NCBI GenBank assembly: GCA_037447655.1
Contig: JBBHKE010003109.1
Span: forward strand, 1 to 42,387
Direction: 5' to 3'
From: Zygnema cylindricum
Lineage: Eukaryota; Streptophyta; Zygnematophyceae; Zygnematales; Zygnemataceae
DNA length: 42,387 nucleotides
How positions within the stretch are numbered: the first letter of the stretch is position 1; every line of letters starts with the position of its first letter. A program made the position numbers and the translations under genes. Below the pieces are notes generated by a model. It had not been told where the DNA came from. It saw nothing but the letters and a program-made list of their open reading frames with translations, and did no database searches. Below, one piece after another: positions 9,463 to 41,398 of this stretch.

Positions 9463-9470
9463 CTCCCCTT
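9463..9470 (-). promoter_or_regulatory. Polypurine tract of the copia element
   Basis: AAGGGGAG on the minus strand lies immediately upstream of the LTR start. The identical octamer precedes the LTR at 29,767. In LTR retrotransposons this purine run primes plus-strand DNA synthesis. Confidence 0.8.
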
Positions 9471-9475
9471 ATTTT

Positions 9476-19590: not shown

Positions 19591-19799
19591 ACTGCATACG
19601 GATTAAAACCCTTCCTATCTACATGTGAATGCGTGAACCTCCAAATGGTTCACGACTTAAAATAGTCCAATAGCGTAGCTTCGTCAGAACTGACAGCGAA
19701 TTTGTCTGTCATTTGCGTCGACGGTCCAGATGCAAAGTTACAAAAATTACATAATCAGCGTCGACGGTTGGGATGCTACTTTACGCGAAACGATTAAAA

Positions 19800-20140
19800 A
19801 TTGTCGTCGGCCGGGATTTCTGGAAATGAAAGTAGGTACGGTAGGACCAAAAGTAGTGTCCAATTTGTAATCGCCGAAATTCCGAGTAATGTAAGTCGTA
19901 CAGTGGACGTAAAATAATCGAATCCACCGTCGGCGAAAATCGCGTATGATATCTATTGTACGGTTAGTCGTGGCCGCGGGAATTCCGGTCGGCGTAAGTC
20001 GTACGGTCGAAGCGAAATAATCAAATCCGCCGTCGACGGAAATCGCGGAAATTATACGTCGTATGGTAGGACCGCAGGTACGATCCTAATCGCCATCCCG
20101 GAAATCAAGGAAAATGTAGGTCGTACGGTACACGTCGTAC
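19800..20140. repeat. Degenerate tandem repeat, unit about 103-116 bp
   Basis: Units start near 19,872, 19,975 and 20,091, with a partial unit before. Shared landmarks are CG(C)GGAAATTCCG, GTAAGTCGTACGGT, AAATAATCNAATCCNCCGTCG and GAAATCGCG. The array ends where the gag copy begins. Confidence 0.65.
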
Positions 20141-20246
20141 GGTCCTGCGAGACCCAAATAATACCCAAATACAAATTAGTGTAGCGGCTGCCCGTCCTAA
20201 CACCCAAATATAAACAACTAAAATAGCCGACAAGATGCGGCATGAC

Positions 20247-23200
20247 ACTCCTTCTCTCGTAAAGAAAGCAAATTGCATCATTTCCTTAGGTACTCCATTT
20301 TTCCGGAAACACTGCCCTTCTTTATGCCCCAGAAATCCACAAGCTTTGCACTTGGCACCCTTGGTGGTATATTTACTCCGGATCTCGTTGGAGATTTGGG
20401 CGTCATCAAACTTTGGAAGTTTGATTTGCCGCAACTGAGATTGGGACATTTTAGAGGTTTCGCTCTGTGGAGTGGGCCGGTAAGTATCCTTGGTTACCGT
20501 TGTCTTGTCCTCTCCCCTCCCTCCCTTGAACTCTTCTTGCTGTTTTGAGGTCCTTTCTGCACGTTCTTTCTCCCATTCTTTAAGTTTCAAAGCTAGCTCT
20601 GGTTTAAGTTTCCTTGTGTAGTGCTCCCACCCATGACCCGGCTGCTGACAATTCATGCAATTATAGAGAAATACCCGCTCATATGCTCCCATAGCTGGTT
20701 CTGACCCGTTGTAAGCCGCTTACTTCCCCTTACACTTCCGCAAAGCTTGAAGTTCAGCCTGTTCCTACTCATTGAAGGAGTTCTCCAGGGCGAATCCTGC
20801 AAAATTTGCTCAGGCTTTGCCGGTCACGACCTTCTTCTTTGCCTCACTGTAGACAAAGTGGTCATATAATTTCATCGCCACCAGTGAGATTTCTTTGGTA
20901 GAGGGATTGATGTCCTGAATTGCTTGTTCAGCAATCCAGATATCAACAGTTGTCAGCCTTGTTGGTCTGAATGAATTACGGGCAGCGATAAAGTATTTAG
21001 TTGCCATTGCAGGAAGGTCAATTGTGGACACTTTCGTTTTCTGACAAAGGCTTGAAAGTCGGTTGAAGAGATTCCGCGAGTCTCATTCTTCAAGCATCAG
21101 AATTCCGTGAATTCTTTGATAACTGACTCGTTCCTCTCTGTATAGAGGAGTCTCCACATGTTTAACAGAGTGGTACAAGGGTTGGGATTAGCAACCATGC
21201 GAGTTGCTGCCTGGGCTGCTTGAATGGCTTGCAGCTGGTTAACATACGCACTTCCTTATGCCTGCAGTTTCAAGTCATGTGTGAAGGTAGCAGTTACAGG
21301 GGTTGCAGCCGCTAACGCTGACTCATTCTCCGCTTGCAAGACTGCCGCATCAAGGGCTGGATCCGAGGTCTTGATGCTATGAGCCATCAAAAAAGGTTGA
21401 TGCTCCTTGTAATCTGCCAACGCCCCTCCAAAAAGGTAGTAGACCATGATGGAGAAGAGGGTTGTCTCGAAGTCATCCGTAATTGCTCCTCCCCTGTACT
21501 TATTGATTTCGGATTGTGTGAAAGACTTCCACAACAACTCTAAGTCTGAAAAGGCAATCCCCCAGCTATCTCCTGTAAAGATCCGGATGTCTCCCATTTT
21601 TTTTTCTTCCTCTACAGAATTGGTGAAGTGTGACGAGGAAGGCCCGGTAGGACTGACAAATTGAGCCGCGGAGATTACTCTGGTATCCTCTTCCTCGAGA
21701 GCGGAACCTTGTCCTCCTCCGAAAGCAGGTGCTGCTCTGATAGGTCTCGATCATACTCCCAAAAAGGAAGTACCAGAGCCGAAAAGTATTGTGGGAGGGA
21801 GGATATTCCCCACTACTCTTTTATATCCAGGAGAGTATTGTTTTTCCCTGAGAACTTGACCCACCGACGGGATGTAGAGGCGAGGTCGAGGATTTGGAGA
21901 AGGGTTGGTGGCGAAGAAGGGGACGACCGGAGGCTCTAGGGAGAAGGTGTCAGTCTCCGGAAAGGTGTCTGTCTCCTTGGTCGCCTTCTAGAGGTCTCGG
22001 GAGGAGGAGTTCCACAGTAGAGGATGGGGAACGTCTATGAGGAGGTGAGTAAGCGGGGACATGCTTCTAAGGTAAAAAAGGCGGCTCTGGAGACCCGCGG
22101 ACTGCTGCAGCGGGAGAAACAGATGGTGAAAGGCAGTCTTGGGGCTTTGTAGTAGGACCTGGTGAGGGAGAGGAATGAGGAGGAGGAGAAGATGGGAGAT
22201 CTGGAGATGCTCTGAGAGGTGAAGGGGGTGTTGACGGCATCAAGCGAATGTGAATTTTATCATCCGGTTGTAACTCCAACAAAGCCTCCACTGCCGAAGA
22301 CAACTCCATCGAGACAAAGGTTGTCTCTTCCTGGGGAATTGCAGTAAACTTAGTAGGTAAATCTGCACCCAAACCCCTCCTGTAAGGTCTTGTTGTTTCC
22401 CCCCCTTCTCGCTAAAAAGAAGGCTCTCGGCCAGGCCCGAAGGAAGGAACGTCGGTCTGTGTTCTTGCGAGAGGAGAAGTTCCCAGAGCTAGTGCTTCCG
22501 CATGCGGCTCGGTCTTCAGTGTAGGAGGGGTTTATCGCTGAGAATCCCACTTGCCCTACGGCGAGATTGCAAATAAGCATCAATTCATGTTCCCATACCT
22601 TTCTCCTTTCTATCTCCAAGGCCTCCCAATCTACAGTAGCAGGTCCGACCCCCGCCGTAGCCTATCCTTCAGATTTTAGAACCTCCACTAGTTCCTTGGC
22701 CTTTTCGACCACTTTGGTGAGATGCGCTATCCCCATCTCGGAATTTTGGGATCATTGGGTCTGGTCTGCCACCTTCCCTCGGACAAATCTTCTGGTCCCG
22801 TACCTGGAACCTCTGGAATGTTTGTTCGGATCGCCAGAACCCTCCGGCAGGGCGGTCACGAGGTGGGGTAGGAAAAGTTCTCTTGGTTGAGGGTGACACT
22901 GGAGTTGGGGATGTCTCCTCCTTGGGAAGAGGTAAAAATCTCCCCATGCTGTCGCGGTGGTAAAACCGCTTTCCTCTAAATGGATCTCGCGCCTCCCTCT
23001 TACTTACCCTTTCTCCTCGACATGGCCGCAAAGAGGTGCGCCTCCGGGGAGGTCTACTGGCCGCGGTATCCTGATAGTGAGATGGAGGAGGGCGAGAATA
23101 GAGAGCTCTTGGTGACCAGTCCTACACCGACTGTGAAGAGCCGCTCTCAGAAGAGGTGCTCATAATCTCCACCAACCCTCCCACGGGTCTAACCACCTTG

Positions 23201-23699
23201 ACTCGATATGTCCGAGCCACTCTCTATACCATATCGTTCTTCACCTTCAGCTCATAGAGGTCGTGAAGGGCAAGGAGTTCCTTACGACCTGGGCGACGTG
23301 AATTCGTCAAAACCGTGGTGTCAATCTGAATCTCGGCCTAGGGAATCTTCGATGTTGTGTGAAGCCGACCTCCTGAAGAGGACCCAAATGGGGCTCCCTT
23401 TGTGCATGCCGCTTGGGTTAGGCTCGGGGAGGCACTCTGTTCCTTTCTTGGGCTTGAGCCCCAACTTCCCTCCTTTCCTCAGCATAGGCCCTGGCGGCCT
23501 CAGACAAGGAAGGGTAATGTTTGGGAGTCAGGTCGGGAGGAAGTGGAGGAGAAGAAGCACCAGCTGGTTCCTTGATCGGAGAATCAAATACAAACTCCAT
23601 GGGTACATACTCCTTTGACATTTGAGCCTTTCCCTCCAGGACAGGCCTCTCTTGCCGACCTTGCTCTCCGAATCCATTATCCGGAGTCTCTCCTCCCAC
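20247..23699 (-). pseudogene. Ty3/gypsy gag, second (truncated) copy
   Basis: Starts MGGETPDNG at 23699 and runs through a Pro/Ser/Arg-rich N-terminal part, a middle part (MGDIRIFTGDSWGIAFSDLE; ATKYFIAARNSFRPTRLTTV) and two CCHC knuckles. The first, CMNCQQPGHGWEHY near 20,655, has lost its last Cys; the second, CKACGFLGHKEGQC near 20,340, is intact. The protein would package RNA in particles. Frames shift several times and stops occur. It parallels 34,918-38,214 almost throughout, but homology stops at about 20,247, where unrelated sequence begins, so protease and everything beyond are missing. It retains about 50 codons (EYVPMEFVFDSP to EERREVG) that the other copy has deleted. Confidence 0.8.
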
Positions 23700-25002
23700 T
23701 ATGATGACAGAGGTAACAAGAGAAAGAGAAATGAATGTAACTAGAGCTCCCTTCCAAAAAGAGATTCCAAAGTCAAAACTCCTATCCCCTGTAATCCGAG
23801 CGGAGAAGGGTTGTTTTTCAGTACTGTGTTTTGTCTATGGCAAGTCTATCGCACGTGTTCCCTCAAAACCCACTGTTTTGATCAAGGGGGTTTCAGTTTA
23901 CTCTAGAACGATCTTTCCAAAGCAAAGAGAACTCCAAACGAAGACACAAATGCACTACCACTTAGATATATATAAATAAAAATGATTGGTTTTCTAGATT
24001 TAACAATATCACCTTGCCCCAAAAAAGAGAATAAAAGATAGAAAATGTGAAATGTAGCGAAGCAAACTTAACATACCCCAGCAATCAGCGATGATAATTT
24101 AGGAAAATGCGACCCCTCTCCCGATAGTATCGTCAAAAGGTATGGTACTCCTACAACCTTCGGTGTCTGCAGCTCGGAACCGACCAGACTCTTCTCGGTT
24201 CCAAATAGCAAAAAGTCCAAAATCACCCAAAAAAGAAGATAATGCCAACTACCCGCCTGGACAGTGATTTCCACAAAAGACAGATCCAAAACCAAGATGG
24301 TAATATAGTCGAAACAACACAAAGATTTTCCAAAAGAAGGTTTGTTGGAATTTCTGAGGGTTTTCACACGAGAGAGTACAAAAAAGCAACATGTCTCCTT
24401 CGACCCCAAGTGCTTCATACATCAAAGTTTGTCAAATTGCAAGTCTAAAAGTCAAAGCTATGCTATTAACCAATGAGCGGCAAGCAAGTGTAATTGAACT
24501 GACACAAGACAAGATAATTCGTACTACACTAGGGGCAAAAAGTTCTGCTCCGGACTGCGGCTAGATCCGCGTCCAAAAGTAATTATTCGGTCCACTATTA
24601 TAAAACATAGTCCTGAAAGGGACACTAACTTGCCAGACTTTAACCTAACGTAATTAATGGACAAAAAGTCAACTGAGACTGAACTAAATTCCTACTGACG
24701 GCTACCAGCATAATCTAAATGCATATCTGGAAAGTTACGTGGCAATCCACAATGTACCCCCTACGAGGGCTGTTGGCAAATGGTTCCCTATAACGGGATA
24801 ACAATAATTGAGACGGTAAAACTTTGTTGTCTGGCCTCCATTACATACCAAATAAAGTGCGTTCGCTCAGTTTAGGAAATACAAGGACATCGTCCGGCTT
24901 GGTGCACTCACTCCTCCGTAGTTTGAAGACCGTACAGGGTAAACACTGCTCAGAAATCCTTGGTGATATAAAGGTATGCCTGAAAAGCACATGAGCTTGA
25001 CA
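23700..25002 (-). mobile_element. Ty3/gypsy LTR plus leader, internal copy
   Basis: Reads from TGTCAAGCTCATGTGC at 25002 to the gag start. It is repeated at 39515-38215 with high identity. It follows integrase and precedes a gag, so it serves as 3' LTR of the upstream unit and 5' LTR of the truncated unit. The LTR/leader boundary cannot be placed because both copies run straight into gag and no clear primer binding site was found. Confidence 0.7.
24068..24418 (-). CDS. Small conserved ORF in the LTR/leader (unknown)
   Basis: 116 codons with a hydrophobic middle (VQAGSWHYLLFWVILDFLLF). The counterpart at 38580-38834 keeps the same frame and C-terminus (KLSSLIAxVC, stop), with mainly single-residue changes. 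The two copies are recent enough that shared openness is weak evidence of function. Position before gag suggests a leader ORF or merely LTR sequence. Confidence 0.25.
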   Translation of the reverse strand: MKHLGSKETCCFFVLSRVKTLRNSNKPSFGKSLCCFDYITILVLDLSFVEITVQAGSWHYLLFWVILDFLLFGTEKSLVGSELQTPKVVGVPYLLTILSGEGSHFPKLSSLIAGVC

Positions 25003-25469: not shown

Positions 25470-26671
25470 CTAATTGCAAGCTGATGAACTGGAAGGAGGA
25501 TTGACAAAGTAGGTTAAGTGGAAAGTGGGTTCGTCTTCTAAACCGCGAAGATGGCAGAGGGCCACATTGATCTGATTCTCTTTAATTTGTCGACCATCTT
25601 TTCCCTCCGATGTAGGAACCCGTTTGTTGGAAACCACAACCACTTTCAAAATTACTCTCCCGGCAGAAATATCTAGCGTGTCTTTCTTCTGTTGCATCCG
25701 ATATACAAAGTCCCTCGGCATAAATCCTCGCTGCCGGGGCACATAATTTCCGGTGATCTCGGTGTTGAGCCGCCTGCAAATTGCCCATGGCGAGAGGCAT
25801 CACTCGGTGGAATATCTTGGCTCTCTCGGCGATCAATTTTTCGATTGTCCCCTTGTCATTAATCTCTAGGAGGACCACCGCTTGGGCCGATGCAGCTCCG
25901 AGCAAGATGGGATGCCATCCAAATAGAATGAAGTAAGGGCTATTAGAGTGGAGAGAAGCCTGCCTGCGTAATCTGTAACCCATAGCAATCCAAGGCACTT
26001 TTCTGTCCCACTCCCCCAAATCTTTTTCAACTGCATATTTTTGTAGTGACGGCTTCACTGTTTTACACACCTTTCGGCCAAACCATCGGCTTGAGGGTGG
26101 TCATGGGTGGTGAGTCGATGGTCGCCTAGGCATTTTTCCAAGAGGTTAAAAAATTCTCCGACGAATTCGGAGCCTTGGTTGGTTAGAACTTCCGCAGGCA
26201 CCGCGAATAGTGCTAAAACCCTTTGCAAAAAGGCATATGCAATTGCCTTGAACTCCTTCCGGGGCAAAACCAGCAACTCGATCCATTTGGAAAATGTTAT
26301 ATCATGACCAACACAAAGCGGTTCCCCCGCCTGCTGGTCGGAAGAGGTCCCAAAAGATCCAATGACCACCGGTAAAACATCCCCCGGATAGGAAGCGAAT
26401 GAAGCTCTGTCCCGCCCTTTTTGTCAAAAGGTGCCTTAACTCAATCGCAGGAAGAGCAAGCCTGCACAATTCGGTTGACTTGGGTTCGCAACCCATGCCA
26501 CCAATAAGAGCCTGTAACCAGGGAAGTGGTCCGCTTTTGCCCAAAGTGTCCACATTGCCGATGGAGATTGGAAATCAGAGTTTCTCGGTCACAGGGGGGA
26601 GGAACCACTTTCCTCGTGCCGTCTGACCATTTCCAAAGGAGAACGCCTCTGTCCCAATCATACGCAGCCAT
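25470..26671 (-). pseudogene. Ty3/gypsy integrase
   Basis: Zinc-binding HHCC domain at 26671-26441: LHRQCGHFGQKRT, then QACSSCD. Catalytic core at 26369-26055: HDITFSKWIELL, LTNQGSEFVGEFF and HPQADGLAERCVK. The usual Asp in the second motif (TDxGSEF) reads Asn here, which would abolish strand transfer if genuine. The C-terminal domain at 26070-25470 has WDRKVPWIAMGYR, LFGWHP and a GPY/F-like segment (RDFVYRM ... DGRQIKENQINVALCHL). Overlapping ORFs in different frames show frameshifts near 26,440-26,370 and 26,060. Integrase inserts the cDNA into the host chromosome. Confidence 0.88.
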
Positions 26672-26728
26672 CCTGGTCTGTACTTGGGATAATTAAATTC
26701 CAGTCAAGTGGAGAAGAGGCGACCCCTA

Positions 26729-27384
26729 TTAGATAGATTGGAGAGCATCGGGGTCGTTCCAGATGTCCTTCCGTCTGGCCCCTATGGGCTCCTGCCCCTC
26801 CACGTCGGCCAAGAAAGTTGACAGTTCTCCTCTAAATTGGGGAAGCCAGATGAAAGCGGAGGATGCTCGAATGATTCCTAGACTGAACTCAGGGTCCTCA
26901 TCATGCGGAGCCTCGGTAGAATCCATGGTGGACGGATCAAGATTCTGGCTAAGTCCGTCGGCATTCCCATGGATTTCCCCTGCCCTTTGAACAATGTCGA
27001 AATCATATTCTTGCAGGAAAAGAACCCATCTAGCGAGTTTGCCGGTTAACTTACTATTTTCGATAATCCATTTCAGGGGTTGGTGATCTCTAATCAAGGT
27101 GAAATGGACTTCGTACAAATAAGGTCGGAAATGCTGGATGGCCCAAACCGCAACGAGTAATTCTCCATGATAACTGCTATAATTCCCCTCTGCCCTGATG
27201 TTGCTTCGGCTACCGTAGGCCATCACATATTCATCTTTGACATCATCGACTTGAGCCAAAACCGCTCCCAATCCAAACCTCCTCCAATCAGTATAAAGGA
27301 GGAAAGGTCTTTGGTGATCAGGCATCCAGAGAACGGGGTGCTGCTTCAGAGCATCCTTCTAGAAGTGGAAGGATATCTGTTGTT
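26729..27384 (-). pseudogene. Ty3/gypsy RNase H (3' half of the RT-RNase H region)
   Basis: Begins QQISFHF, stop, KDALKQHPVLWMPDHQRPFL and continues with YTDWRRFGLGAVLAQ, YGSRSN, NYSSYHGELLVAVWAIQHFR, DHQPLKWI, KLTGKLARWVLFLQEYDFDI and GNADGLSQ. This is the standard gypsy RNase H order, with the catalytic D (TD) and E (GELLV) positions present and the final active-site D in NADGLS. The domain is cut from its RT by the element inserted at 27,385-30,936; the frame is restored when that element is removed. Confidence 0.92.
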
Positions 27385-27579
27385 TGTTGAAATTTAAGTA
27401 TTTTATAGGTCTAGAGATTGTAAAATAAAAGCCAAAACAATGACAGCTTGCCTCTAACTCTTCACTCAAGACCCCACACTTGTCGCAGTCATTGAAGACT
27501 CGAGGAGGAGTTAAATCCATGGCTGCCTAAGCTGTCTAAAGAGGCCAAGAAGGAAAATTCGATTAAGTTACCTAAAATA

Positions 27580-27624
27580 TTTGACGGACACGGGATTTGA
27601 TCCAGGTACCCGCCATCCGTCAAA
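27580..27624 (+). promoter_or_regulatory. LTR hairpin with B-box-like loop
   Basis: TTTGACGGA (27580-27588) pairs exactly with TCCGTCAAA (27616-27624). The loop holds GGATTTGATCC (27593-27603), the reverse complement of a B-box-like word. The same hairpin occurs in the 3' LTR near 29,964-30,005. Confidence 0.6.
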
Positions 27625-28040
27625 TAAGCCGGTAGCCTTAACCTACAAGTCTAGGATTAATGATAGGATATATGAGGATTGATAAATATTTATTATGTTA
27701 CACGTAGACTAGTTCATTTAACGGGATATAGATACGAAATACATAGATACAATTTTTGTACGATTTTAATGTACTATATGAAACGGATACCTCGCATTTG
27801 TTTCGAACACGAAACAAATACCGCGCGTATATTTTCAACGGCTATAGTTGTATCCAGTTTTGATCGGATGACCACGATAGGCGCCGCGATCAAAAAATAT
27901 GTACTTTTGGTGTTTTACTGTCATCGCCATGTCATGTGACACGTGGCGCGACAACGTTGGATTGCGACAACTCTAGAGATTACGAGAACAAATCCCGATA
28001 TGACACGTGTCAACATTTTGGCCATATCGTACGATGGCTG

Positions 28041-28049
28041 TATATAAAG
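28041..28049 (+). promoter_or_regulatory. LTR TATA box
   Basis: TATATAAAG, about 30 nt after the second CACGTG box. The corresponding site in the right LTR (near 30,418) reads CATACAGAAAT and has decayed. Confidence 0.5.
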
Positions 28050-28144
28050 TACACTGACACATGTACTTTTTTATACAACACAATAATTTTATTTGTGTCG
28101 TACGTCAGTAGATAGAGTTTAGAGAGAGATAGGACTTAGAAAAT

Positions 28145-29173
28145 TTGGTTGGTATCAGCCTTTCTCCGAGAGAGCCACTTGTAGGGATTAAAAGTGAAGA
28201 AAATGACAGAAAAATATGGGAATACAAAAACACTATAGCAAAGCATCTCATACTTAGAAACGTGTCTAAGTCAAAAGCTATCACTCTTATAAACTTAACG
28301 AAGTCTTCAAAGATATGGGAAGCACTAAGTCAGATTTATAAGAGTGAGACTATTCAGAGGCATCATTTAGTAAAACAAGAAATAGATGCCTATGTTTATA
28401 AAGGCGGTAGCATGATAGAGTTTTGCAATGAAATTACTGCGCTAAATGTTGAGCTTGCTAGTGCGGGATATGTAGAATCTGAGGAGAGGAAGATTTATAC
28501 ACTATTCATGAAACTCCCAGATGAGTACGAAAACATCATTTGTCGTATGCAGGCGATGGATGCCTCTTCATGGACTTGGAGCTTTACCATGGGGATAATT
28601 CTTGTGAGGGAAAGCACTTTGGAGCTTCATAGGGGAAGTGACTGAGTGAATGCATTTACAACTGGTGGTGATTGGCGCAAGCGTGATGAGAGGAACGGCG
28701 GTGACAAGCGAAAGCGTGATGAGAGGAAGAAAGACAAAGGTAAACCTTATCGAAACTTTGGTAGAAAGAGAGGGAGAGGAAAAAAAACGAGAGCTTTGAA
28801 AAAAAGGGTTTGCTTCTTTTGTAGGGAACCGGGTCATTATATAGAGGAATTCCCTTGTTTGAAAGAACTTAGAAGTTGGAATGTGGATGAGGAGGAAGAA
28901 GGGGAAGAGGAGAAAGAGGATGAAGATATCTTAGAGCTTCTCCGCATCGGTAGTATGAGGAAGAGAGAAAAGCACACAGAAATTCCACATAAGCAACAGT
29001 GTGCTTTTGGAGGTATATTGGAAGCAAAGAGAGAGGAAATACATGAGGGAGTTCAAAATATTGAGGATAGTTTCATAGATATTTTGGAAACAGAAAAACT
29101 GGTCGGAAAGGGAGACTTCAACGGATTCCGAGGAAAGGGGACACATGAAACTAGAAAGGGTTCTAAAGGATAG
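28145..29173 (+). pseudogene. Copia-type gag (UBN2-like) with zinc knuckle
   Basis: One frame interrupted by a TGA at 28643-28645. The first part has the copia gag pattern: IWEYKNTIAKHLILRNV, SSKIWEALSQIY, HHLVKQEIDAYVYKGG, LMKLP-like FMKLPDEYENII. The second part is Lys/Arg-rich with a knuckle CFFCREPGHYIEEF in which the fourth Cys of CX2CX4HX4C is Phe. It then turns acidic (DEEEEGEEEKEDED). About 70-80 N-terminal residues normal for copia gag are missing; the frame begins inside LTR sequence. Gag assembles particles, and a gag-only element would rely on another copia element for pol. Confidence 0.8.
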
Positions 29174-29758
29174 GGGAGAAGAGGAATGTTTAATGAAAGG
29201 TATGGGGGAGGAGAAATATTTATTGGGAATAAATTTAGAAAGTGATAGTGGAAAGAATTCCATGCGAGAGAGTAAGGAAAGTTCAGAAAATGGGTTAAGA
29301 ATCATGGATAAAAATATGATTTCGGAAGATGTAGATTTTACGAAGAACTTAGTGGGACTCTTGATTTAAGGATAATTTTGGGGGGTAATGGTTTTGACAT
29401 CACTAATGGGAGTGATACCCTCTATAAAGGTGTGCATGGAAAAGGGTTAGCATCTGAGGATGTGTTGCAAATTATGGATGGAGCTGATTGTTGGAAATGG
29501 AAAAGGGAAAGTGGATTTTGGTTGGATGAAAAGGGGAAGGGGTGGATCAAATCTTTGCTCAGATTTTTGAAAAGTGGCATGCAAAATAAAATGTATGATC
29601 GACAAGATGAAATTATTTTTGGTCATCTAATACACTTTCTTAAATATAAAGGTATTCGCTTGAAGCTTCATGAAGGAAAAAGGACAAAAGAAAGGAAAAT
29701 ATATATAAATGTATTTGTTGTTTTTGAAGGGAGTTGAAAGTAAAGTAGACTAGACAAT
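29174..29758 (+). other. Internal region of the gag-only element, no pol
   Basis: Short ORFs (29145-29369; 29378-29737) are hydrophilic and match no pol domain I can recognise. The sequence leads directly to the polypurine tract. It may be captured or degenerate DNA. Confidence 0.5.
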
Positions 29759-29766
29759 AAGGGGAG
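29759..29766 (+). promoter_or_regulatory. Polypurine tract of the gag-only element
   Basis: AAGGGGAG immediately before the 3' LTR; identical to the copia PPT at 9463-9470. Confidence 0.8.
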
Positions 29767-30936
29767 TGTTGAAATTTAAGTATTTTATAGGTCTAATGAT
29801 TGTAAAATAAAAGCCAAAACAATGACAGCTTGCCTCTAACTCTTCACTCAAGTCCCAACACTTGTCGCAATCATTGAAGACTTGAGGAGTTAAATCCATG
29901 GTTGCCTAGGCTGTCTAAAGAGGACAGGAAGGAAAATTCGATTAAGTTACCTAAAATATTTGACGGACACGGGATTTGATCCAGGTACCCGCCATCCGTC
30001 AAATAAGCCGGTAGCCTTAACCTACAAGTCTAGGATTAATGATAGGATATATGAGGTTTGATAAATATTTATTATGTTACACATAAAATAGTTCATTTAA
30101 CGGGATATAGATAGGTAATGCATAGATACAGTTTTTGTACGATTTTAATGTCCTATATGAAACGGATACCTCGCATTTGTTTCGAACACGAAACAAATAC
30201 CGCGCGTGTATTTTCAACGGTTATAGTTATATCCGATTTTGATCGGACGGCCATGATAGGCGCCGCGATCACGAAATATGTATTTTTGGCATTTTACTGT
30301 CATCGCCACGTCATGTGACACGTGGCGCAACAACGTTGGATTGCGGCAACACCAAAGATTACGGGAATAAATATCGATATGACACGTGTCGACATTTTGG
30401 CCATGTCGTACGATGGCCATACAGAAATTACACCGACACATGTACTTTTCTATACGACACAGTAATTTGATTAGTGCCGTACGTCAGTAGATAGAGTTTT
30501 AGAGAGAGATAGTACTTAGAAAATTTAGTAGGTATCAGCCTTTCTCCGAGAGAGCTCTTGTACAAAAGGGTCATCTTTGACCATTCATATCTATCAATTT
30601 ACTTGACCATTTTCAGTGATTCTTTTTGCTGCGCACTCAGGGGAGTCCATGCTACACACGAATGTAGTCCGTCAAAGTTTTCGCCTTCCAGGGTAGCTGC
30701 ATTTATAAGGGAAATTCAAAGTGGGTGAATTTGTCCAAAACTCATATTCTAACTTTGCATTATGTGGTGGAACTGAGCACACAGAAAGTCTTATTTCATA
30801 GGGGTGAAACTATAATGGGTCTGTGATTGTCAAGGGGTCAGTCATTTGGGTATATATCAACTTGGAGTCGGCACTATCTAGATAAGCTTCTTTAGGATCT
30901 GCGATTTCTGTGGGCAATGGAGCACATAAAGTTTCA
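29767..30936 (+). repeat. 3' LTR, full length (1,170 bp)
   Basis: Starts TGTTGAAATTTAAG, ends AAAGTTTCA, followed by the 5-bp duplication TTGTC. The internal hairpin is preserved. The stretch 30,540-30,700 also matches the minus-strand copia LTR at about 8,520-8,660 (CTCTTGTACAAAAG, GATTCTTTTTGCT, ACTCAGGGGAGTC), which confirms family membership and that the LTR extends to 30,936. Confidence 0.82.
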
Positions 30937-30941
30937 TTGTC

Positions 30942-31760
30942 GTTCATCCCACCGCCACTCTTGGTCCTTCTGCAATAGCTGGTTAAGAGGCTGGGCGTGA
31001 CTATTGAACTCGGGGATAAACCGCCGATAGTAATTGGCCAGACCCAGAAAGGTGCGAAGTGCCGAGATGTCTTGTGGTGGGGGAAGAGCGTCAAGGGCCG
31101 CCACCTTGACCATGTGGGGACCCACAGTCTCGGAAGTCACCTCATGTCCGAGGTACATGTTTTTTTGTACCCCAAAAATGCCTTTGCCCAGGTCCTCTTT
31201 CAAGCGCGCTGCTTAGAGTGCCCGAAGAACGATCTGGATTTGCTCTAGGTTATCCTCAAAAGATTTGGAGAGTATAAAAACATCATCAATAAAGCACCTG
31301 GCACAATCGATTCCTCGGAGCGCTTCGTACATTGCCCGTTGGAATTTGGCCAATGCATTCTTATAAATCCATTCATGAAGTCTGGAACCAGCCCAAAATG
31401 TCGTTCTCTCCCAGTGCTTCGGTTCCATGGCAATCTGGTTAAAACCATTCTCCATGTCCAGACTGGAATAGATAGTGGCGCCAGCAAGAGAGTCGAATAT
31501 CTATTTCAGAGTCGGCATCGGATACCGGTCAGAGATGGTGGCCGTGTTCAGCATGCGATAATCTCCGCGGATCCGAAAATCTATAGTCTTCCTTGACGAG
31601 TCCTTCTTAGGAGGGAGAAATGTCGGGGAAGCGAACCCATGAAGTCCGATACTTTCTTAAACCAATTCGGCTCCCACCAAAGTCTGGACTTTAGCCGTGA
31701 TGAATTCCTTTTCCTTGAAACTGAGAGGATACTCCTTCTGCCAAACAGTAGCCGTTTCCT
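30942..31760 (-). pseudogene. Ty3/gypsy reverse transcriptase
   Basis: Order on the minus strand: YPLSFKEKEFITAKVQTLV, FASPTFLPPKKDSSRKTIDF, GDYRMLNTATISDRYPMPTL, SSLDMENGFNQIAMEPKHWE, KNALAKFQRAMYEALRG, CFIDDVFILSKSFEDNLEQI (catalytic DD; coding positions 31,296-31,276), then FGVQKNMYLGHEV, LRTFLGLANYYRRFIPEFNS and EWRWDERQ at the insertion site. The box reads FIDD rather than the usual YxDD/YLDD. Stops lie near 31,655 and 31,500 and a frameshift lies near 31,210, so it is non-functional. RT copies the element RNA into DNA. Confidence 0.92.
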
Positions 31761-31844
31761 CGATCAAATCAATTCGGAATTAAGTTCCTTTAAAAATACC
31801 GACATTTGTTTCTGACCATCAGAACATTTGCTTATTTTTGGCAA

Positions 31845-32008
31845 TACACAGAAAGTGTTATTTCACAGGGGTGAATCTATATTGGGGTTCTGACTGTCAA
31901 GGGGTCAGTCACTTGGGTTTATATTAACTTGGAGTCGGCACTATCTAGATTAGCTTCTTTTGGATCTGCATAGTCTGAGGGCTAATGGAGGTCTCAGAGT
32001 TTCATAGT
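31845..32008 (+). repeat. Copia LTR 3'-end fragment
   Basis: Matches 30,768-30,936 (ACACAGAAAGTNTTATTTCA, GTCAAGGGGTCAGTCA, CTTGGAGTCGGCACTATCTA) and ends GGTCTCAGAGTTTCA at 32,008, the same terminus as the LTR at 8399. It lies between the methyltransferase and RT regions. It is a remnant of an earlier insertion or a truncated LTR. Confidence 0.75.
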
Positions 32009-32199
32009 CCTCCGGCTAGGACTCTACTGCTTACAACTTGTGCCAGGTTGTCGCCATCAGAGCTGCCGCCCCCCCCACTGGGAAAACCTATGGTGGTGAA
32101 ATGTTAATTTTTCTTCTCTTTTCTCTCCCCCCCTCAAGCTGCAAAGTTGGGTGCATCGCTAACAACTAAGGAGCTTGAAGGGATTCTGGGGACTTGAGA

Positions 32200-33130
32200 C
32201 TGGAAAAGGCGTGTGCATGCTTGAGTACCTATGTGATCGAATTCAAGTCCATACTCTGCCTAATTAGGTTGCTTCTCTAAAGGTCCAAAATACCTGGAGC
32301 TTTTGTGGTGCCTTTATGAAATCCCATGGCTTCTTCCCGTGTCAAAAATCATTCCCGCTGCTCCTTTTCGATAAGCGTGACTATGAGGGAAAAAAACCAA
32401 AGTCGGGAGTGCTCTCCGTGGTAATCTCGGTTTGTTGCACCGAAAGAAAAGAGAGCGGTCTGGTCGCGTCACAAGGGTGGCCATCCTACCTTCCCCAAGT
32501 ATTTGCTGCACCGAATTTTGCGGGTCAGGAATTTGCTTGTCCAACAATCGTTGCAGTACTGGAAGTGGGATCATATTTGTCCAATATGCCCTTACTCTGT
32601 GTGCACGGGATCCCATCTGTAAGGTGTCGAAAAAACCAAAGGAGCTCCTAAAATTTGGGTTACGTGATTCTAGCTGTCCGCAACCTGTTTCCTTTTATCA
32701 TCTCCCGGGTTGACATTTTCCAGAACGTACCCCACCGGTGTGTTTTGGAGTTGTTGAACCCACGTGATTAATTCGATCATCCGGTGAAATGTTCCACTTC
32801 TGCGGTCTTGATGCCCTTTTCCTTGTCCCGCTAGGGAGTATCCTTGACAAGGCCAGCCTGCCAACACCAAATCCACTCTTCCCAAACTGGCTAGATGGTG
32901 CGCCATGATGTTTTCTACATTTTGGGAAAACTTCGGTGAGCTTTGGAAAAAGCTGTCACTGGAAGCCGTTGAGGATATAGGTGATGAAGTTGATGGAGGC
33001 GGTGTTCGCTGACAGCCCGCGCCTCGGGTGATATTTCCACGGCTGCGTATGACTCAACCAGATATCATGTTTTCAAAACTGCTTCCAAATCAGAACTAAT
33101 TCCCGAAAATAGAGATAAAATACGTAGTCC
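32200..33130 (-). pseudogene. C5 cytosine DNA methyltransferase domain within gypsy pol
   Basis: Conserved motifs of C5-MTases appear in order. Motif I: LRILSLFSGISSDLEAVL (33,126-33,075), followed by YAAVEISPEARAVSEHR (motif II-like acidic site). Motif IV: VDLVLAGWPCQGYS (PCQ, catalytic Cys; 32,875-32,835). Motif VI: YVLENV (ENV at 32,720-32,712). Motif VIII: GSRAHRVRAYWTNM (32,613-32,572), then a target-recognition-like region ending near SHAYRKGAAGMIF. Motif X-like: GFHKGTT and MDLNSIT (to 32,232). This family transfers methyl from S-adenosylmethionine to cytosine C5. Stops at about 33,050 and 32,915 and at least two frameshifts make it inactive in this copy. It lies after the protease and before RT; motif I is in the same frame as the linker ORF ending 33,242. 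Presence is well supported; subfamily is not assigned. Confidence 0.87.
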
Positions 33131-33241
33131 GGAATCGAGGACTGCCAATGACACCACTTATCAATTAAACTCCTCGTTACCGGACTTGGGTTTGGAAGCA
33201 ATTGACAGTGGTGTAGAAACGGCTTCCTTCAATGTTAAGGC

Positions 33242-34170
33242 TTAAAATGCCTTATCCACTCCCCGCCGGAGTTTTGCTACCTGCAATATTTTATTCTTAT
33301 ATTCCTCTCCCACCGCTTGGAAATTGGGAATTGCTAGATTTCTTTGGCGATATCTGTAGAACTGCCAAACAGTTTTGTCGGAGATGATGTTGTGTACACC
33401 GGGTAGCAACCAAAAACATGGACATTTGTCTTCCCCTGGTTTCATAAGTCCAAAGGAACCACCACTTTGGTTGCTTCCGGAATTTTGGAGTCCCGAACTG
33501 TACATTGTTCCTTCCACACGCTCAAACTCATATTCAGCTGGGTCCAAGTGGCCATTCCCAACAGAATTTCGAATTTGGTCCCTTCCACCACCAAGAAGGG
33601 AAGCTCAATTTTCACCCGTTGGCCTCCGTCATCAGAAAACTCAATTTCCATGGCCTTGATTATTCCATGGAAGGGTTGACTGCGGCTGCTTATGGTGCTT
33701 AAGCAAATACTACTTGGGCAGATTTCGGGTCGTTGTTCCTCGGGGATTTTCTGCAAAGCGGAGGTGGTGATGAGGTTGGGGAGCGCCCCGGTGTCAACCA
33801 AAGCGTCTTCGTATCCCTCGTACGCGTTGAGCTTGAAGTTCTCGGTTCGGTTCTGTATAAGGGCCACACATAAGGCCTTGTAGTCCCTATCCACTATAGG
33901 TGTTTTCGGATCGTTGGACAAAAATACTGCGGTTGGCGGAGTGGTCCTGTCGACCTTTCCCTTTCCCGAGTGGATCTCCTTTCCTAATGCCTCAATGAGG
34001 ATTTCTTCGGGCAGGTTGTGGGAGGATGCTAAAGTCTTTATGTGAGTGAGGGCATATGGCATGAGGTGTCGGACTAGCATAACAGTCGGTTTCGAGGAAA
34101 GAATAGTTTCTTTCGGTGAAGATGCTGATGAGTTCGGTTCCTGCAGATCCAGATCCTGTCTTTCTTTCAC
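33242..34170 (-). pseudogene. Retropepsin-like aspartic protease and linker
   Basis: 34170-33442 encodes a segment with YEDALVDTGALPNLIT, the active-site D-T-G, and a later ILLGMATWTQLN block corresponding to the conserved (I/L)LG near the protease C-terminus. A frameshift near 33,470 passes to 33547-33242 (SFGLMKPGEDKCPCFWLLPG to LRRGVDKAF), which leads, after a stop, into the methyltransferase in the same frame. The protease would cleave the Gag-Pol polyprotein. Confidence 0.8.
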
Positions 34171-34339
34171 ACTCTCAGAGCCGGAATTTGGGATGGGAGG
34201 TGTTTAAGGAGTGTCATTCTCCGGGTGTTGAACCATATATTTCTCAAACCAATCTTGATTGTCATTTTTCTCTCATTCTAGTGACTCTTTCTCTTTTTCT
34301 TGTTTCTCGTTCTAGTAATTTTCGAAACCGAGAGGCAAT

Positions 34340-37300
34340 TTAGGTTTGGGAGGAAGAGTTGGTGGGTGATTGGGTTTGATTCCTAAGCCAATGTCGCTGT
34401 TTAGCATAATTGCCCCGGGAGTAATTGACAAAGGCCTTGTAGCTTTGTAGTTGTGATCCCTCTAACTCATTTTCTGCCTGTCCTGTCTTTGCATCGAGGT
34501 GGAATGGCGGAGTTGGCGGCGGTTGTCTTCCATCCCAACATTCCAAGCTCCGGACAGGAAGGGTAGGGCATGGTGGGCATTTGAGGTTCCAAATCCCAGC
34601 CCAATAAGTCGTCATCGTTGGCACCCGCTGTGCCTTGAAGCTCAAGCTCCGGGAGCTTCAATAACATCCCCTGTTTTTGCTTTCGGAGTCCTTGTGCTGT
34701 TGTGAGAGTAGCAGGCCGGGAAGAAGATCCTAAGCGGAGGGCAGCCAACTCTACAGCCATTGCGGCTAGCTGTTGACTCTGCTGCTGTATGATGATCTCG
34801 GGCGTAAGCCTTGCCGAAGCAACCGAAGTTCGCTCACGTCTCTTCGGCGTGGGCATAAGTTGGCGCCCCCACGAGTAAAGAAGTTGGAGTGGGAAAGGGT
34901 TAACCGTTGTTTCTACTTCTCCCGTAAACAAAGCAAATTGCATCATTTCCTTGGGTACTCCATTTTTCCGAAAACATTGCCCTTCTTTGTGCCCCAGAAA
35001 TCCAAAAGCTTCGCACTTCGCACCCTCGGTGGTATATTTACTCTGGATCTCGTTGGAGATTTGGGCGTCATCAAACTTTAGAAGTTTGATTTGCCGCAAC
35101 TGAGATTGGGACATTTAAAAGGTTTCGCTCCGTGGAGTGGGACGGAAAATATCATTGGTTACCGGTGTCTTGTCCTCTCCCCTCCCTCCCTTTAGCTTTT
35201 CTTATTGTTTCAAGGTCCTTTCTGCACGTTCTTTCTCCCATTCCTCAAGTTTCAAAGCCAACTCCGGTTTAAATTTCCTTCTGCACTGCTTCCAACAATG
35301 ACCCGGCTGCTCACAATGTATGCAATTATAGAGAATACCCGCTCATCTACTCCCATAGGTGGTTGTGCCCCGCTGTCAGCAACTTGCTTCCCTTTAAGTT
35401 TCCGCAAAGCTAGAAGTTCAGCCTGTTCCTCCTCATTCTAGGAGGTCTCCACGACGAATCCTGCAAAATTTGCTCGGGCTTTGCCGGTCACGCCCTTCTC
35501 CATTGCCTCACTGTGGACAAAGTGGTCATATACTTTCATTGCCACCAGTGAGATTTCCTTGGCGGAGGGATTGATGTCGTGAATAGCTTGTCCGGCAATC
35601 CAGTTATTTAGAGTTGTCTGCCTTGTCGGTCCGAATGAATTACGGACAGTGAGAAAGTATTTAGTTGCCATTGCTGGAAGGTCAATCGTGGACAGTTTCG
35701 TTTTCTGACAAAGGCTTGAAAGTCAAGTGAAGAGAGTATGGGGAGTCTCGTTCTTCAAGCATGAGAATTCCGTGAATTCCTTGATTGTTGACTCGTTCCT
35801 CTCTGTATAGAGGAGTCTCTAGATGTTTAGCAGAGTGGTATAGGGGTTAGGATTAGCAACCATGCGAGTTGCTGTCTGGGCTGCTTGAATCTTGCAGCTG
35901 GTTAACATAGGCACTTCCTTGTGCCTGCAATTTCATGTCATGTGTGAAGGTAGCGGTTACAAGGGTTGCAGCCGCTGCCTCTAAGTTAGCCTTCGCTTGT
36001 AGGACAGCCGCATCAAGGGCTGGATCCGAGATCTTGATGCTAGGAGCCATCAAAAGAGGTTGACGCTTTTTGTAATCTGCCAACGCCCCTGTAAAAAGAT
36101 GGGGGACCATCATGGGGAAGAGGGTTGTCCCGAATTCATCTAGAATTGCTCCTCCCCTTTACTTATTGATTTCAAATAGAGTGAAAGACTTCCACAGCAA
36201 CTCGAAGTCTGAAAAGGCAATCCCCGAGCTATCTCTTGTAAAGATCCGGATGTCCCCCATTTCCTTTTCTACCTCTACAAAATTGGTGAAGTGTGACGAG
36301 GAAGGCCCGGTAGGACTCACAAACTAAGCCAGGGAGATGACTCCTGTATCCTCTTCCTCGGGAGCGGAACCGTGTCCTCCTCCGGAAGCAGGTGTTGCTC
36401 TGATAGGTCTGGATCCTCCTCCCAAAGAGGAAGTACCAGCGCCAAAAAGAATCGTAGGAGGGAGGATATTCCCCAGTACTCCTCTATATCCAGGAGAGTA
36501 TTGTTCTTCCCTAATAACCCAATCCACCTATGGGATGTTGAGGCAAGGTCGAGGTCCTTGGGGAAGGGGTGGTGGCGGAGAAGAGGACGACAGGAGGCTC
36601 TAGGGAGAAGGTGTCTGTCTCTAAAAAGGTGTGTGTCTCCTTGGTCGCCATCTAGAGGTCTCGGGAGGAGGAGTTCCAAAGCAAGAGGATGAGGAACGTC
36701 TGTGAGGAGGTGAGTAAGCGGGACGTGCTTGTAAGGTAAAACATGGGGCTTTATAGACCCCCAGCCTTCTGCAGCGGGAGAAACAGATGGTGAAGGGCAA
36801 TCCCGGGGCTATGTAGTAGGACCCGGGGAGGGAGAGGAATGAGGAGGAGGAAAAGATAGGAGATCTGAAGATGCTCAGAGAGGTGAAGGGGGTGTTGACG
36901 GCCTCAAGGGAATGTGAATTCTCTCGTCCGATGGTAACTCCACCAAAGCCTCCACTGCCGAAGACAACTCCACCAAGACAAAGGTTCTCTCTTCCCCGGG
37001 AACCGCAGTAGACTCACAAGGTAAATCAGCACCCAAACCCCTCTTGTTAGGTCCTATTGTTTCCCCCCCTTCGCGCTGAAAAGGAGGCTCTCACCTAGGC
37101 CCGGAGGAAGGAACATCGGGTTGTGTTCTTGCAAGAGGAGAAGTTCCCAGAGCTGGTGCTTCGGCCTGCGGCTCGTCTCCGGTGTACGGGGGGTTTGCCC
37201 GATGAGAATCCCACTTGCCCCACGCTGAGCTTCCCGAATAAGCATCAATTCCTGTGCCCATTCTTTTCTCCTTTCTATCTCGAAGTCCTCCTAATCTACG

Positions 37301-38214
37301 TTGGCAGGTCCGGCCCCCGCCGTAGCCTGTCCTTGGGTTTTAGAACCTCCACTAGTTCCTTGGCCTTTTCAACCACTTTGGTAAGATCCCCTATCCCCAT
37401 CCCCAAAATTTTGGGATCATTGGGTCTGGTCCGCCACCTTCCCTCGGACAAATATTTTGGTCCCGTACCCGGAACCTCTGGATCAGTTCGTTCAGATCGC
37501 CAGAGCCCTCCAGGAGGGCTGTCACGCGGTGGTGCAGGAGCTAGTTTGTGGGTTGATGCAGACACAGGAGTTGGGGAAGTCTCCTCCTTGGGAAGCGGTG
37601 CGAATCTCCCCTTGCTGTCACGGTGGTCAAACCTCTTCCCCCTCAATGGATCTCGTGTTTCCCTCTTGATACCCCCTTCTCCTCTACGAGGCCGAGAAGA
37701 GGTACCTTCCCGGGTGGGTCTTCTGGCTGCGGTGTCCTGAGAGGAAGATGGGGGAGGGCGAGAATAGGGGGCTCTCTTGTGACCTGTCCTGCACCGATTG
37801 TGAAGAGCCGCTCTCCGAAGAGCTGCTCAAAGTCTCCACCACCCCTCCCACGGGTCTAACCACCCTGACTCGATCTGTCCGAGCCACTCTCTGTACCAAC
37901 TCCTTCTTCACCTTCAGCTTATGGAGGTCGTGAAGGGCAAGGAGTTCCTTACGATCTGGGCGACGTGGATCCGTCAAAACCGCGGGGTCAATCTGAATCT
38001 CGGCCCGGGGAATCTTGGATCTGGTGTGAAGCCCGACCTCCGGAAGAGGACCCAAATGGGGCTTCTTTTGCGCCTGCCGCTTGGGCCGGGCTTGAGGAGG
38101 CACTCGGTTCCTTTCTTGGGCCTCCTGTGACATTTGAGCCTTTCCCACTTGGACAGGCCTCTCCTGTCGACCTTGCTCTTCGGATCCATTATCCGGAGTC
38201 TCTCCTCCCCCCAT
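34340..38214 (-). pseudogene. Ty3/gypsy gag, first copy (complete extent, decayed)
   Basis: Starts MGGGETPDNG at 38214. N-terminal Pro/Arg/Ser-rich region (38214-37054 in pieces), MGDIRIF segment near 36,260, ADYKKRQPLLMAPSIK (36,080), ATKYFLTVRNSFGPTRQTTL (35,670), a CCHC knuckle CIHCEQPGHCWKQC near 35,320 (complete) and a second CEAFGFLGHKEGQC near 34,990 whose second Cys is Phe. The C-terminal part (34,850-34,340) is Gln/Leu-rich (EIIIQQQSQQLAAMAVELAA) and absent from the other copy. Multiple frameshifts. Compared with 20,247-23,699, about 150 nt after codon 27 is deleted. Confidence 0.82.
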
Positions 38215-39515
38215 GATGACAGAGGTAAAGAGACAAAGAGAAATTAATGTAACTAGAGCTCCTTTCCAAAAAGAGATTCCAAGGTCAAAGCTCCTATCCC
38301 CTCTAATCCTAGCGGAGAAAGGTTGTTTTTCAGTAATGTGCTTTGTCTACGGGAAGTCTATCGCATGTGTTCCCTCAAAACCCACTGTTTTGATCAAGGG
38401 GGTTTCAGTTTACTCCGGAACAGTCACTCAAAAGCAAAGGGAACTCTAGATGAAGACACAAATGCACTACCACGTAGATATATATAAATAAATATGATTG
38501 GTTTTCCAGATTTAACAATATCACCTTGCCTCATAAAAGAGAATAAAAGATAGAAAATGTGAAATGTAGCGAAGCAAGCTTAACATACCTCAGCAATCAA
38601 CGATGACAATTTAGAAAAAGGCGACCCCTCTCCCGATAGTATCGTCAAAAGGTATGGTACTCTTGAAACCTTCGGTGTCCGCAGCTCGGAACTGACCAGA
38701 CTCTTCTCAGTTCCAAACAGCAAAAAGTCCAAAATCACCCAAAAAGGAAGATAGTGCCAACTACCCGCCTGGACTGTGATTTCCACAAGAGACAGATCCA
38801 AAACCAAGATGGCAATAATTTCGAAACAACACAAAGATTCTCCAAAAGAAGGTTTGTTGGAATTTCTGAGGGTTTTTAAAGGAGACAGTACTGAAAAGCA
38901 ACCTGTCTAGGTCGATCCCAAGTGCCTTATACATAAAAGTTTGTCAAATTGCACGTCCAAAAGTCAAAGCTACGCTATTAACCAATGAGCGACAAGCAAG
39001 TGTAATTGAACCGACAAAAAACAAAAGAATCCGTACTACACTAGGGGCAAAAAGTTTTGCTCCGGATTGCGGCTAGATCTGCGGCCGGAAGTCATTATTT
39101 GGTCCACTATTATAAGACAAAGTCCTTAAAAAGACACTAACTTGCGAGACTTTGACCTAACATAATTAATGGACAAAAAGTCAGCTGAGACTGAACTAAA
39201 TTCCTACTGACGCCTACCAGCATGATCTAAAAGCAAATCCGGAAAGTTACATGGCAATCCACAATGTACCCCCCACAGGGGCTGGTGGCAAATGGTTCCC
39301 TATAACGGAACTGCAATCTTTGAGACGGTAGAACTTCGTCGTCCGGCCTCTGTTAGGCACCAAGTAAAGTGTGTTCCGCTCAGTTTAGGAAATACAAGGA
39401 TCTCGTCCGGCTTGGTGCACTCACTCCTCCGCACTTTGAAGAGCGTACAGGGTAAAAATGGCCCAGAAATCCTTGGTGATATAAAGGTATGCCTGAAAAG
39501 CACATGAGCTTGACA
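38215..39515 (-). mobile_element. Ty3/gypsy 5' LTR plus leader
   Basis: From TGTCAAGCTCATGTGC at 39515 to gag. Homologous along its length to 25002-23700. The outer edge directly abuts element C sequence, as expected for insertion into it. The internal LTR end and primer binding site are not resolved. Confidence 0.7.
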
Positions 39516-40290
39516 TCTATACCTTGGAAAAAAACGAGAAAATCTCGTACCAAAAAATTTAAATTACCACCGTACAAGTTGCGTTACCTTGAAACTTTAA
39601 CTGTATTGTAGTTTTTTGTTTAGCGCGATGTAACTTGTCGTCTAGCGCGTTTCGACCCACTTCCGCCTTCTTCCAGCTCATCTTCAAGCTTTAAATAAAA
39701 TCACCTCTCGAGGTGATTTTAAATAATTTTCACGACGTGAGCAAATAGGCATATGATTTCGCACGCGTTGGAGGTTTTTGACAATTTTTGTGCGCGGAGG
39801 ACCAAAAAAAAAACCCACCGAACATTTCCAGCCTGTGCATGAATTTTTTTTCGTGCGTTTTTTTCTGTATAGGGGTCGTAGAGGGGTCTCGACCAACGGA
39901 CGTCGTTTCGCAAAAGTGAAGTCTGTGAAAGCGCCTCTCTCTCTCTCCCTCTCCCACGACCAAGTCTATCTCACTGTTCTTGCAACGAAAAACGTCAATA
40001 ATGGTATCAAATAAAAGATCTCTGAAAACGATTTCTTTTGACTATCTTTGGGCGTATTTTGATGGCAAGTAGAGTGAGAAAAATTAAAAAAAAATACAAT
40101 CAAGAAACCATGGCGGAAAAGATTTAGAATTTGTGACATCGGCGTTGTCATAGTTGAGCGTGACGTGCGTGACGTCATAATGTCACAAACCTTAAACATC
40201 TGCAATGCCTCCACGTCGACAATGTAGCGTACAGACATTGCGAAGTGACAGAAACCGTACAAAGTGCGGGTAGACGTTTGATATTGAAGC

Positions 40291-41292: not shown

Positions 41293-41398
41293 GAAGCCGA
41301 GTGGAAGTTTCGCAACATTTTGTGTACCGTATATTTGTCACATGTTTCGTTGCATATCTACGGTTAACACTTTTGAAGTAACAAGTTATTTACGCTTA

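Follow-up and report, generated by a model that had tools for sequence, protein, structure and literature searches.

Why retroelements should bring along the very type of enzyme by which they are silenced has been a puzzle since 2018. For the locus described here, the question is whether its DNA cytosine methyltransferase (MTase) is a part of the retroelement or a stray piece of a host gene. The window, that is, the whole stretch of DNA analyzed, consists of 42,387 nucleotides of Zygnema cylindricum (contig JBBHKE010003109.1). A preliminary description placed an MTase inside a Ty3/gypsy polyprotein, between the protease (PR) and the reverse transcriptase (RT), and named the lack of a DNA_methylase profile match as grounds for abandoning this reading. 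The placement is right. PF00145 is matched with E=1e-8 (35.4 bits, cut-off 22) in the open piece 32673-33053 of the minus strand, with PR upstream and RT downstream (Table 1).

The translation of the minus strand from 33127 to 32223 contains LSLFSGI, GWPCQGYS, YVLENV, and AHRVRAYWTN in this order, spread over three frames. We take these to be motifs I, IV, VI, and VIII of a C5 MTase. They are recognizable and correctly ordered, as had been described, and a motif X-like end is present in a further frame. Motif I had also been described as in frame with the protease-side linker. This holds for the nearest part of the linker only; the protease and the UAG at its border are in another frame, and two stops lie shortly upstream of motif I.

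The window MTase is 70-72% identical in amino acids to that of L011, a locus of the same assembly. At the DNA level, the window is 85% identical over 1285 aligned columns to its sibling L034, the nearest among the loci compared, and positions 32094-36434 are 66% identical to L023. Judging from the profile match and the similarities to L011 and L034, the MTase signal is more than chance. The preliminary description had further considered that the domain could be an insertion at this locus, missing from other copies of the element. The sibling alignment crosses the domain unbroken, which speaks against such an insertion as far as copies all chosen by their MTase match can tell. Measured against L011, the MTase reading of the window is broken by 4 gaps that shift the frame and by 7 stops. 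The corresponding numbers of gaps and stops are 0 and 1 in PR, 0 and 5 in RT, 1 and 2 in RNase H, 5 and 3 in integrase (IN), and 5 and 11 in the upper gag. Because of these lesions, the window copy is dead.

Table 1. Features of the retroelement locus in the window, in order of position.
Feature	Position	Strand	Basis or remark
Family A LTR cutting the lower unit	19597..20247	-	Alignment to fetched loci
Second unit in tandem; its LTR starts at 25002, and another broken gag (22411-20288) comes next	20288..25002	-	
Integrase: H2C2 zinc domain, core, C-terminal part	25585..26692	-	71-83% to L011
RNase H	26732..27358	-	PF17917 E=6e-30; 85% to L011
Nested copia-type element	27385..30562	+	LTRs 27385-28183 and 29767-30562, 92%; separates RT and RNase H
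Reverse transcriptase and upstream linker	30937..31826	-	PF00078 E=2.4e-7; 78-86% to L011
DNMT3-like cytosine methyltransferase domain	32223..33127	-	Pseudogenized; Pfam and alignment to L011
UAG stop at the protease/MTase border, then CAAUUC	33334..33336	-	Border alignment of family B
Protease region (retropepsin-like, DTGA...ILLG) and linker	33337..34143	-	68-70% to L011
Main-copy gag, broken	34953..37099	-	Homologue of the 716-aa gag ORF of L011
5' repeat unit: LTR (start TGTCAAG at 39515), leader, gag	34913..39515	-	87-90% identical to 20248-25002

The order of the Pol domains, PR-RT-RNase H-IN with the integrase last, is that of Ty3/gypsy elements. Direct LTRs, which are also expected of Ty3/gypsy, are seen in the locus L009, and the window has long direct repeats (34913-39515 and 20248-25002), each of which contains an LTR plus a broken gag and not an LTR alone. 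The locus is read as a tandem arrangement: LTR-gag-PR-MTase-RT-RNase H-IN-LTR start (25002)-second gag, cut at 20247. No internal sequence of family A is matched below the family A LTR. The homologue of the window protease in L011 matches PF13650 with E=2e-4 and 22.3 bits, under the cut-off of 24.3. No clear target-site duplication is seen at L009 or at the window repeats, and no tRNA primer site was recognized in a look by eye. In the nested copia-type element, whose LTRs measure about 800 bases, gag (PF14223, E=5e-17) is the only coding part seen, and the element is probably non-autonomous. Gag-only Copia families are mentioned for Ectocarpus and some plants in the text of PMC12477816. Relatives of the copia-type LTR are found at 8494-9495 of the window and in several fetched loci. 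Two other repeats are seen here. An inverted repeat, with arms at 39516-40207 and 41627-42314 (about 690 bases each, 80% identical), begins exactly at the 5' LTR end; this element, at 39516-42314, is foldback or MITE-like and touches the retroelement, and relatives of the repeat are seen at 6531-6944. A direct repeat of about 163 bases (85%) is present at 30779-30941 and 31846-32009, one beside each end of the RT pieces.

In the same assembly (352,776,454 bases, 2689 contigs), 123 of 782 candidates were scored as PF00145 matches, all above the cut-off; they may include host methyltransferase genes among those left unread. Twenty loci of 10 kb were fetched from these matches, all chosen by the MTase match itself. 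The MTase is that of an element in all 20, and RT follows downstream on the same strand in 17 (the exceptions being L022, L025, and L027). Together with 20 short places, the MTase is element-borne at 40 of the 40 places closely read. There are two families: A, of the L009 type, and B, including L011, L012, and L021-L023, with L020 and L027 as a subfamily. Based on sequence comparison, the window element belongs to family B. The order gag-PR-(UAG)-MTase-RT-RNase H-IN of this family is established. L009 is a single open frame of 2395 aa with the order gag-PR-MTase-RT-RNase H-IN-PHD, in which Pfam detects PF00145, RVT_1, RNaseH, integrase, and PHD, while zf-CCHC scores 20.0 bits (cut-off 20.8) and two CCHC knuckles are seen by eye. 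Its LTRs are identical at 931 of 931 bases, indicating a recent insertion, and L009 is apparently very young. No LTR match is found for L010 within the stretches compared. The PHD score of L011 is 17.5, below the cut-off of 24, and the PHD of L009 has no match in the window by tblastn.

The MTase domain is not a one-off capture, since many copies exist and some have long unbroken frames. It could be imagined that a chance piece of a host DNMT gene is carried in this one copy and is meaningless for the element, as the copy is pseudogenized and its MTase belongs to DNMT3, a host-like class. This idea is very improbable and is refuted by the occurrence of homologues in many copies, even if the fetched loci were selected for the MTase. 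The domain lies in open Pol frames with RT behind it, it is found also in proteins of Klebsormidium, Closterium, and Marchantia, and the alignment to the sibling runs through it.

Among PDB sequences, the best match of the MTase is DNMT3A (1.2e-14), and HhaI (3.5e-5) and DRM2 (1.4e-3) are matched as well. The motifs follow one another in the usual order, without the DRM type of rearrangement. The AlphaFold model of the relative P0041 has a pLDDT of 91.9, and a Foldseek search with this model has DNMT3-family entries in 50 of the 50 matches listed. P0041 shares motif order and predicted fold with the catalytic domain of DNMT3A/B/C in PDB (Foldseek E=2.6e-19, TM 0.71/0.80, 24% identity). By sequence and predicted fold, the enzyme is of the DNMT3 type, in line with the label given to the Klebsormidium nitens element in 2018. 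Unlike DNMT3A/B/C, it sits in a retroelement polyprotein, and Pfam finds no PWWP or ADD in the frames of L009 and L011.

Of the 60 rows with letters at the catalytic position, 59 retain the Cys (P0009 has Tyr), and the ENV and AHRxRxxW motifs are kept in most MTase rows. DNMT3L has lost such motifs. At the Pro of motif IV, 31 of 60 rows have Glu and 29 have Pro, with the Cys kept in all 31 Glu rows; the motif of L009 is GWECQG. On a tree built without these columns, Pro and Glu are related by 6 changes. As Glu is seen in around half of the rows, some of the enzymes may be altered in catalysis. These repeated replacements would fit a Pol domain that has ceased to be an enzyme and serves in DNA binding or as a structural part, much as DNMT3L does beside DNMT3A. 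This is unlikely, given the conservation of the Cys, ENV, and AHRxRxxW, and given that the dN/dS values of MTase and RT are close to each other. Between L011 and L012, dN/dS is 0.14 for MTase, 0.17 for PR, 0.09 for RT, and 0.11 for IN. With decayed copies included, the MTase medians are 0.34 in family A (12 of 55 pairs usable) and 0.25 in family B (6 of 15), where pairs with dS <=0.05 or saturated were dropped and every MTase pair of the window was thereby removed. KnitGypsy-Dnmt3, reported from one charophyte, Klebsormidium nitens, also has its MTase domain under selection, with Ka/Ks < 0.2 in the text of de Mendoza et al. 2018 (PMC5890265). Purifying selection on the element MTase is seen in the present ratios, although the medians are above that value. 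For the K. nitens enzyme, the same text describes the activity test in yeast as inconclusive (PMC5890265), and the absence of shown activity is a further point in favor of a non-enzymatic role. The reading as a DNMT3-type enzyme is preferred here.

At the border between PR and MTase, a stop codon is present in all 28 distinct readable places of family B, the window included. The count is based on 32 rows, that is, 28 distinct places and 4 duplicates, all with TAGCAATTC. TAGCAATTC (TAG, then CAATTC) is seen at 24 of the 28 places and TAGCAATTG (TAG, then CAATTG) at one. TAGTAATTC, TAACAATTT, and TAAGAAATC are seen once each; these three places have TAG TAATTC, TAA CAATTT, and TAA GAAATC. Thus UAG-CAA-UU occurs at 25 of the 28 distinct places, and the base that completes the next codon is C or G, not A. 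The subfamilies are diverged from each other, the protease of L020 and L027 being 45-46% identical to that of the window. The MTase loci L007 and L029 have no match to the border. In family A (L009) and in P0033 of K. nitens, the border is read through without a stop.

The consensus for readthrough in plant viruses is given as UAG_CAR_YYA in the text of PMC3542737. UAG-CAA-UU of family B is close to this type I (tobamovirus) signal, although UUC departs from YYA at the last base. The RNA fold 3' of the UAG is clearly beyond shuffles in 2 of 6 sequences. We infer that the stop of family B is bypassed by readthrough. Alternatively, the stop could be a plain ORF border, with MTase-Pol produced by internal initiation or from another mRNA; the last base and the downstream fold indeed fall short of a full match to known signals. 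This alternative has a minor but real chance. The frame continues across the stop in L011, L012, L021, L022, and L027, and no Met between the stop and motif I is common to the two family B subfamilies. Besides, CAATT follows the stop in 26 of the 28 distinct places, though the third positions of the next codons vary. These three observations favor readthrough over a plain border.

A protein search with the MTase region lists 40 matches, 39 of them at 2e-110 to 1e-25 and one at 6e-6. The named sources among them are Klebsormidium nitens, Closterium NIES-53/54, and Marchantia polymorpha, and most are environmental contigs. PHD is listed in 23 of these 40. The MTase precedes RT in 9 of the 40 and lies between RNase H and integrase in 14; another 8 are pieces ending after the MTase (with PR in 7), 8 are pieces of the RNase H-MTase-IN kind, and 1 is unplaced. 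The MTase alone retrieves at least 40 further proteins, the lower six at 9e-5 to 4e-4. The best 120 of 3173 matches to the RT region include P0138 and P0173 of Marchantia, with PR-MTase-RT-RNase H, and, from Haematococcus, a protein in which a short match to the MTase falls between RNase H and integrase. The highest identity among the homologues listed is 77% (RT part). The land plant Marchantia polymorpha has proteins of the gag/PR-MTase and PR-MTase-RT-RNase H layouts (P0003, P0010, P0014, P0138, and P0173). P0008, P0012, P0016, P0018, P0174, P0193, and others form a mostly environmental gypsy clade with RNase H-MTase-integrase and a terminal PHD, and P0172 of Haematococcus falls inside this clade.

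In the RT tree of 33 rows (9 own loci, the window, and 23 proteins), the two layouts part at one branch (99). The MTase tree has 55 rows (9 of the 20 own loci, 44 of 80 proteins, the window, and 1 more row). The agreement of these RT and MTase trees on sub-clades is established, and the window is placed with family B at 99 in both. Their backbone is weak and changes in a larger RT tree of 109 rows, from which RTs below 200 aa, models with RNase H before RT, over-long RT-RNase H spans, and 25 proteins (23 of Cordylochernes, one of a frog, and one unnamed) were left out. In the larger tree, the RNase H-MTase-IN layout is confined to one clade of 24 rows (99), of which 21 have the MTase, 1 has a fragment, and 2 are without it. 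The rows with the PR-MTase-RT layout do not form a single group, and family B lies nearer the other side (89). A single capture of the MTase is not shown, because this tree splits the PR-MTase-RT layout in such a way. Among the 104 non-animal rows, 48 have no MTase in the ORF. In most of the 48, the ORF begins no more than about 130 residues from RT, and an MTase further upstream is possible in these. The ORF of P0163 has room for an MTase, and none is found in it.

The explanation considered probable as a whole is a dead family B copy with a DNMT3-type MTase inherited in Pol, which is reached by readthrough, methylates the cDNA, and is accompanied by a PHD finger that steers integration. Ribosomes on family B RNA would mostly halt at the UAG, yielding Gag-PR, and would sometimes read through it, yielding MTase-Pol. 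The MTase would travel in the particle together with RT and integrase. From the conserved stop in front of the MTase, a low dose, bound to the particle, is predicted. It can be hypothesized that the element methylates its own double-stranded cDNA or the new insert, mainly at CG. The candidate benefits are a disguise of the cDNA, damped transcription in the host, and shielding from nucleases. The PHD finger behind the integrase in unbroken copies might read histone marks and steer or tether integration.

The enzyme might instead act in trans, with the host genome or competing DNA (other elements, viruses) as its substrate. PMC6338049 suggests defense against DNA viruses in general terms in its text. 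Action in trans is not likely, as an MTase made inside Pol would probably be present in few molecules held in particles. As for traces of methylation, C-to-T change in the repeats of this genome, including those of the window, is raised at CG and CHG over CHH. This is a sign of plant-type methylation by the host. At first look, 4 of 5 MTase pairs had CG exceeding CHH at p<0.01, as against 0 of 5 pairs of other repeats. A faster CG decay of MTase elements than of other repeats was dropped on a fuller non-overlapping set, where the CG log odds over CHH are 0.50 +- 0.04 for MTase repeats (26 pairs) and 0.43 +- 0.11 for others (13 pairs). With a wider identity band, the CG log odds are 0.29 in 29 MTase pairs and 0.43 in the same 13 others. 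The CHG excess is larger in non-MTase repeats than in MTase repeats. CG decay in MTase repeats does not exceed that of the remaining repeats compared within this genome, so no lasting mark of self-methylation is apparent in them.

More broadly, it can be speculated that DNMT3-type MTases have long been a core component of a large Ty3/gypsy clade of the green lineage, reaching from charophytes to liverworts, often with a PHD reader on the integrase. They might go back to a single capture that preceded the K. nitens lineage by a long time, with later shifts of place within Pol, between PR and RT or between RNase H and IN. One family would make the MTase only via a leaky UAG that sets the dose per particle. 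This scenario is tentative, with somewhat less than an even chance.

The kind of element is already known, because a paper of 2018 (PMC5890265) describes the one of K. nitens, and the charophyte precedent mentioned in the preliminary description is correct. The window is a dead member from a genome rich in such elements. According to the text of that paper, KnitGypsy-Dnmt3 is likewise a DNMT3-related, non-rearranged MTase in the Pol ORF of an LTR Gypsy element. KFL_009030040 of K. nitens (P0033, presumably one of these elements) is homologous, with 42% identity over 63% of the query, and has the same order PR-MTase-RT-RNase H-IN. The copy, its pol position, and its family had been thought possibly new; the position at least is shared with P0033. 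The repeats of KnitGypsy-Dnmt3 are described as DIRS-like (PMC5890265), whereas L009 has plain direct LTRs. Family B also differs from KnitGypsy-Dnmt3 in the stop before the MTase, and the integrase of the present elements has a PHD finger behind it. None of the words PHD, protease, and Marchantia appears in the main text of PMC5890265. In the open text of the literature, apart from subscription papers, figures, and supplements, no gypsy element with PHD and MTase, no stop before the MTase, and no Marchantia members were found.

Other retroelements with a cytosine MTase belong to other classes: the text of PMC5890265 describes DNMT-bearing DIRS-like and LINE elements in Symbiodinium and calls the retroelement MTase captures independent. 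According to the text of PMC12344493, retrotransposons of streptophytes and dinoflagellates harbor some of the DNMT3s, and that of PMC12477816 reports a DNA transposon of an alga with another methyltransferase, of non-C5 type. In the MTase- and RT-region searches, P0031 and P0140 are the only listed proteins with a chromodomain (PF00385) besides PHD. Chromoviruses are chromodomain Ty3/gypsy elements, with this chromatin reader behind the integrase. The present elements likewise have a reader behind the integrase, a PHD finger instead of a chromodomain. The host, the stop layout, the PHD finger, the second MTase position between RNase H and IN, and the liverwort members are apparently new. With a genome in which all closely read places are element-borne and at least one is apparently very young, what was a case of a single alga becomes comparable and assayable.
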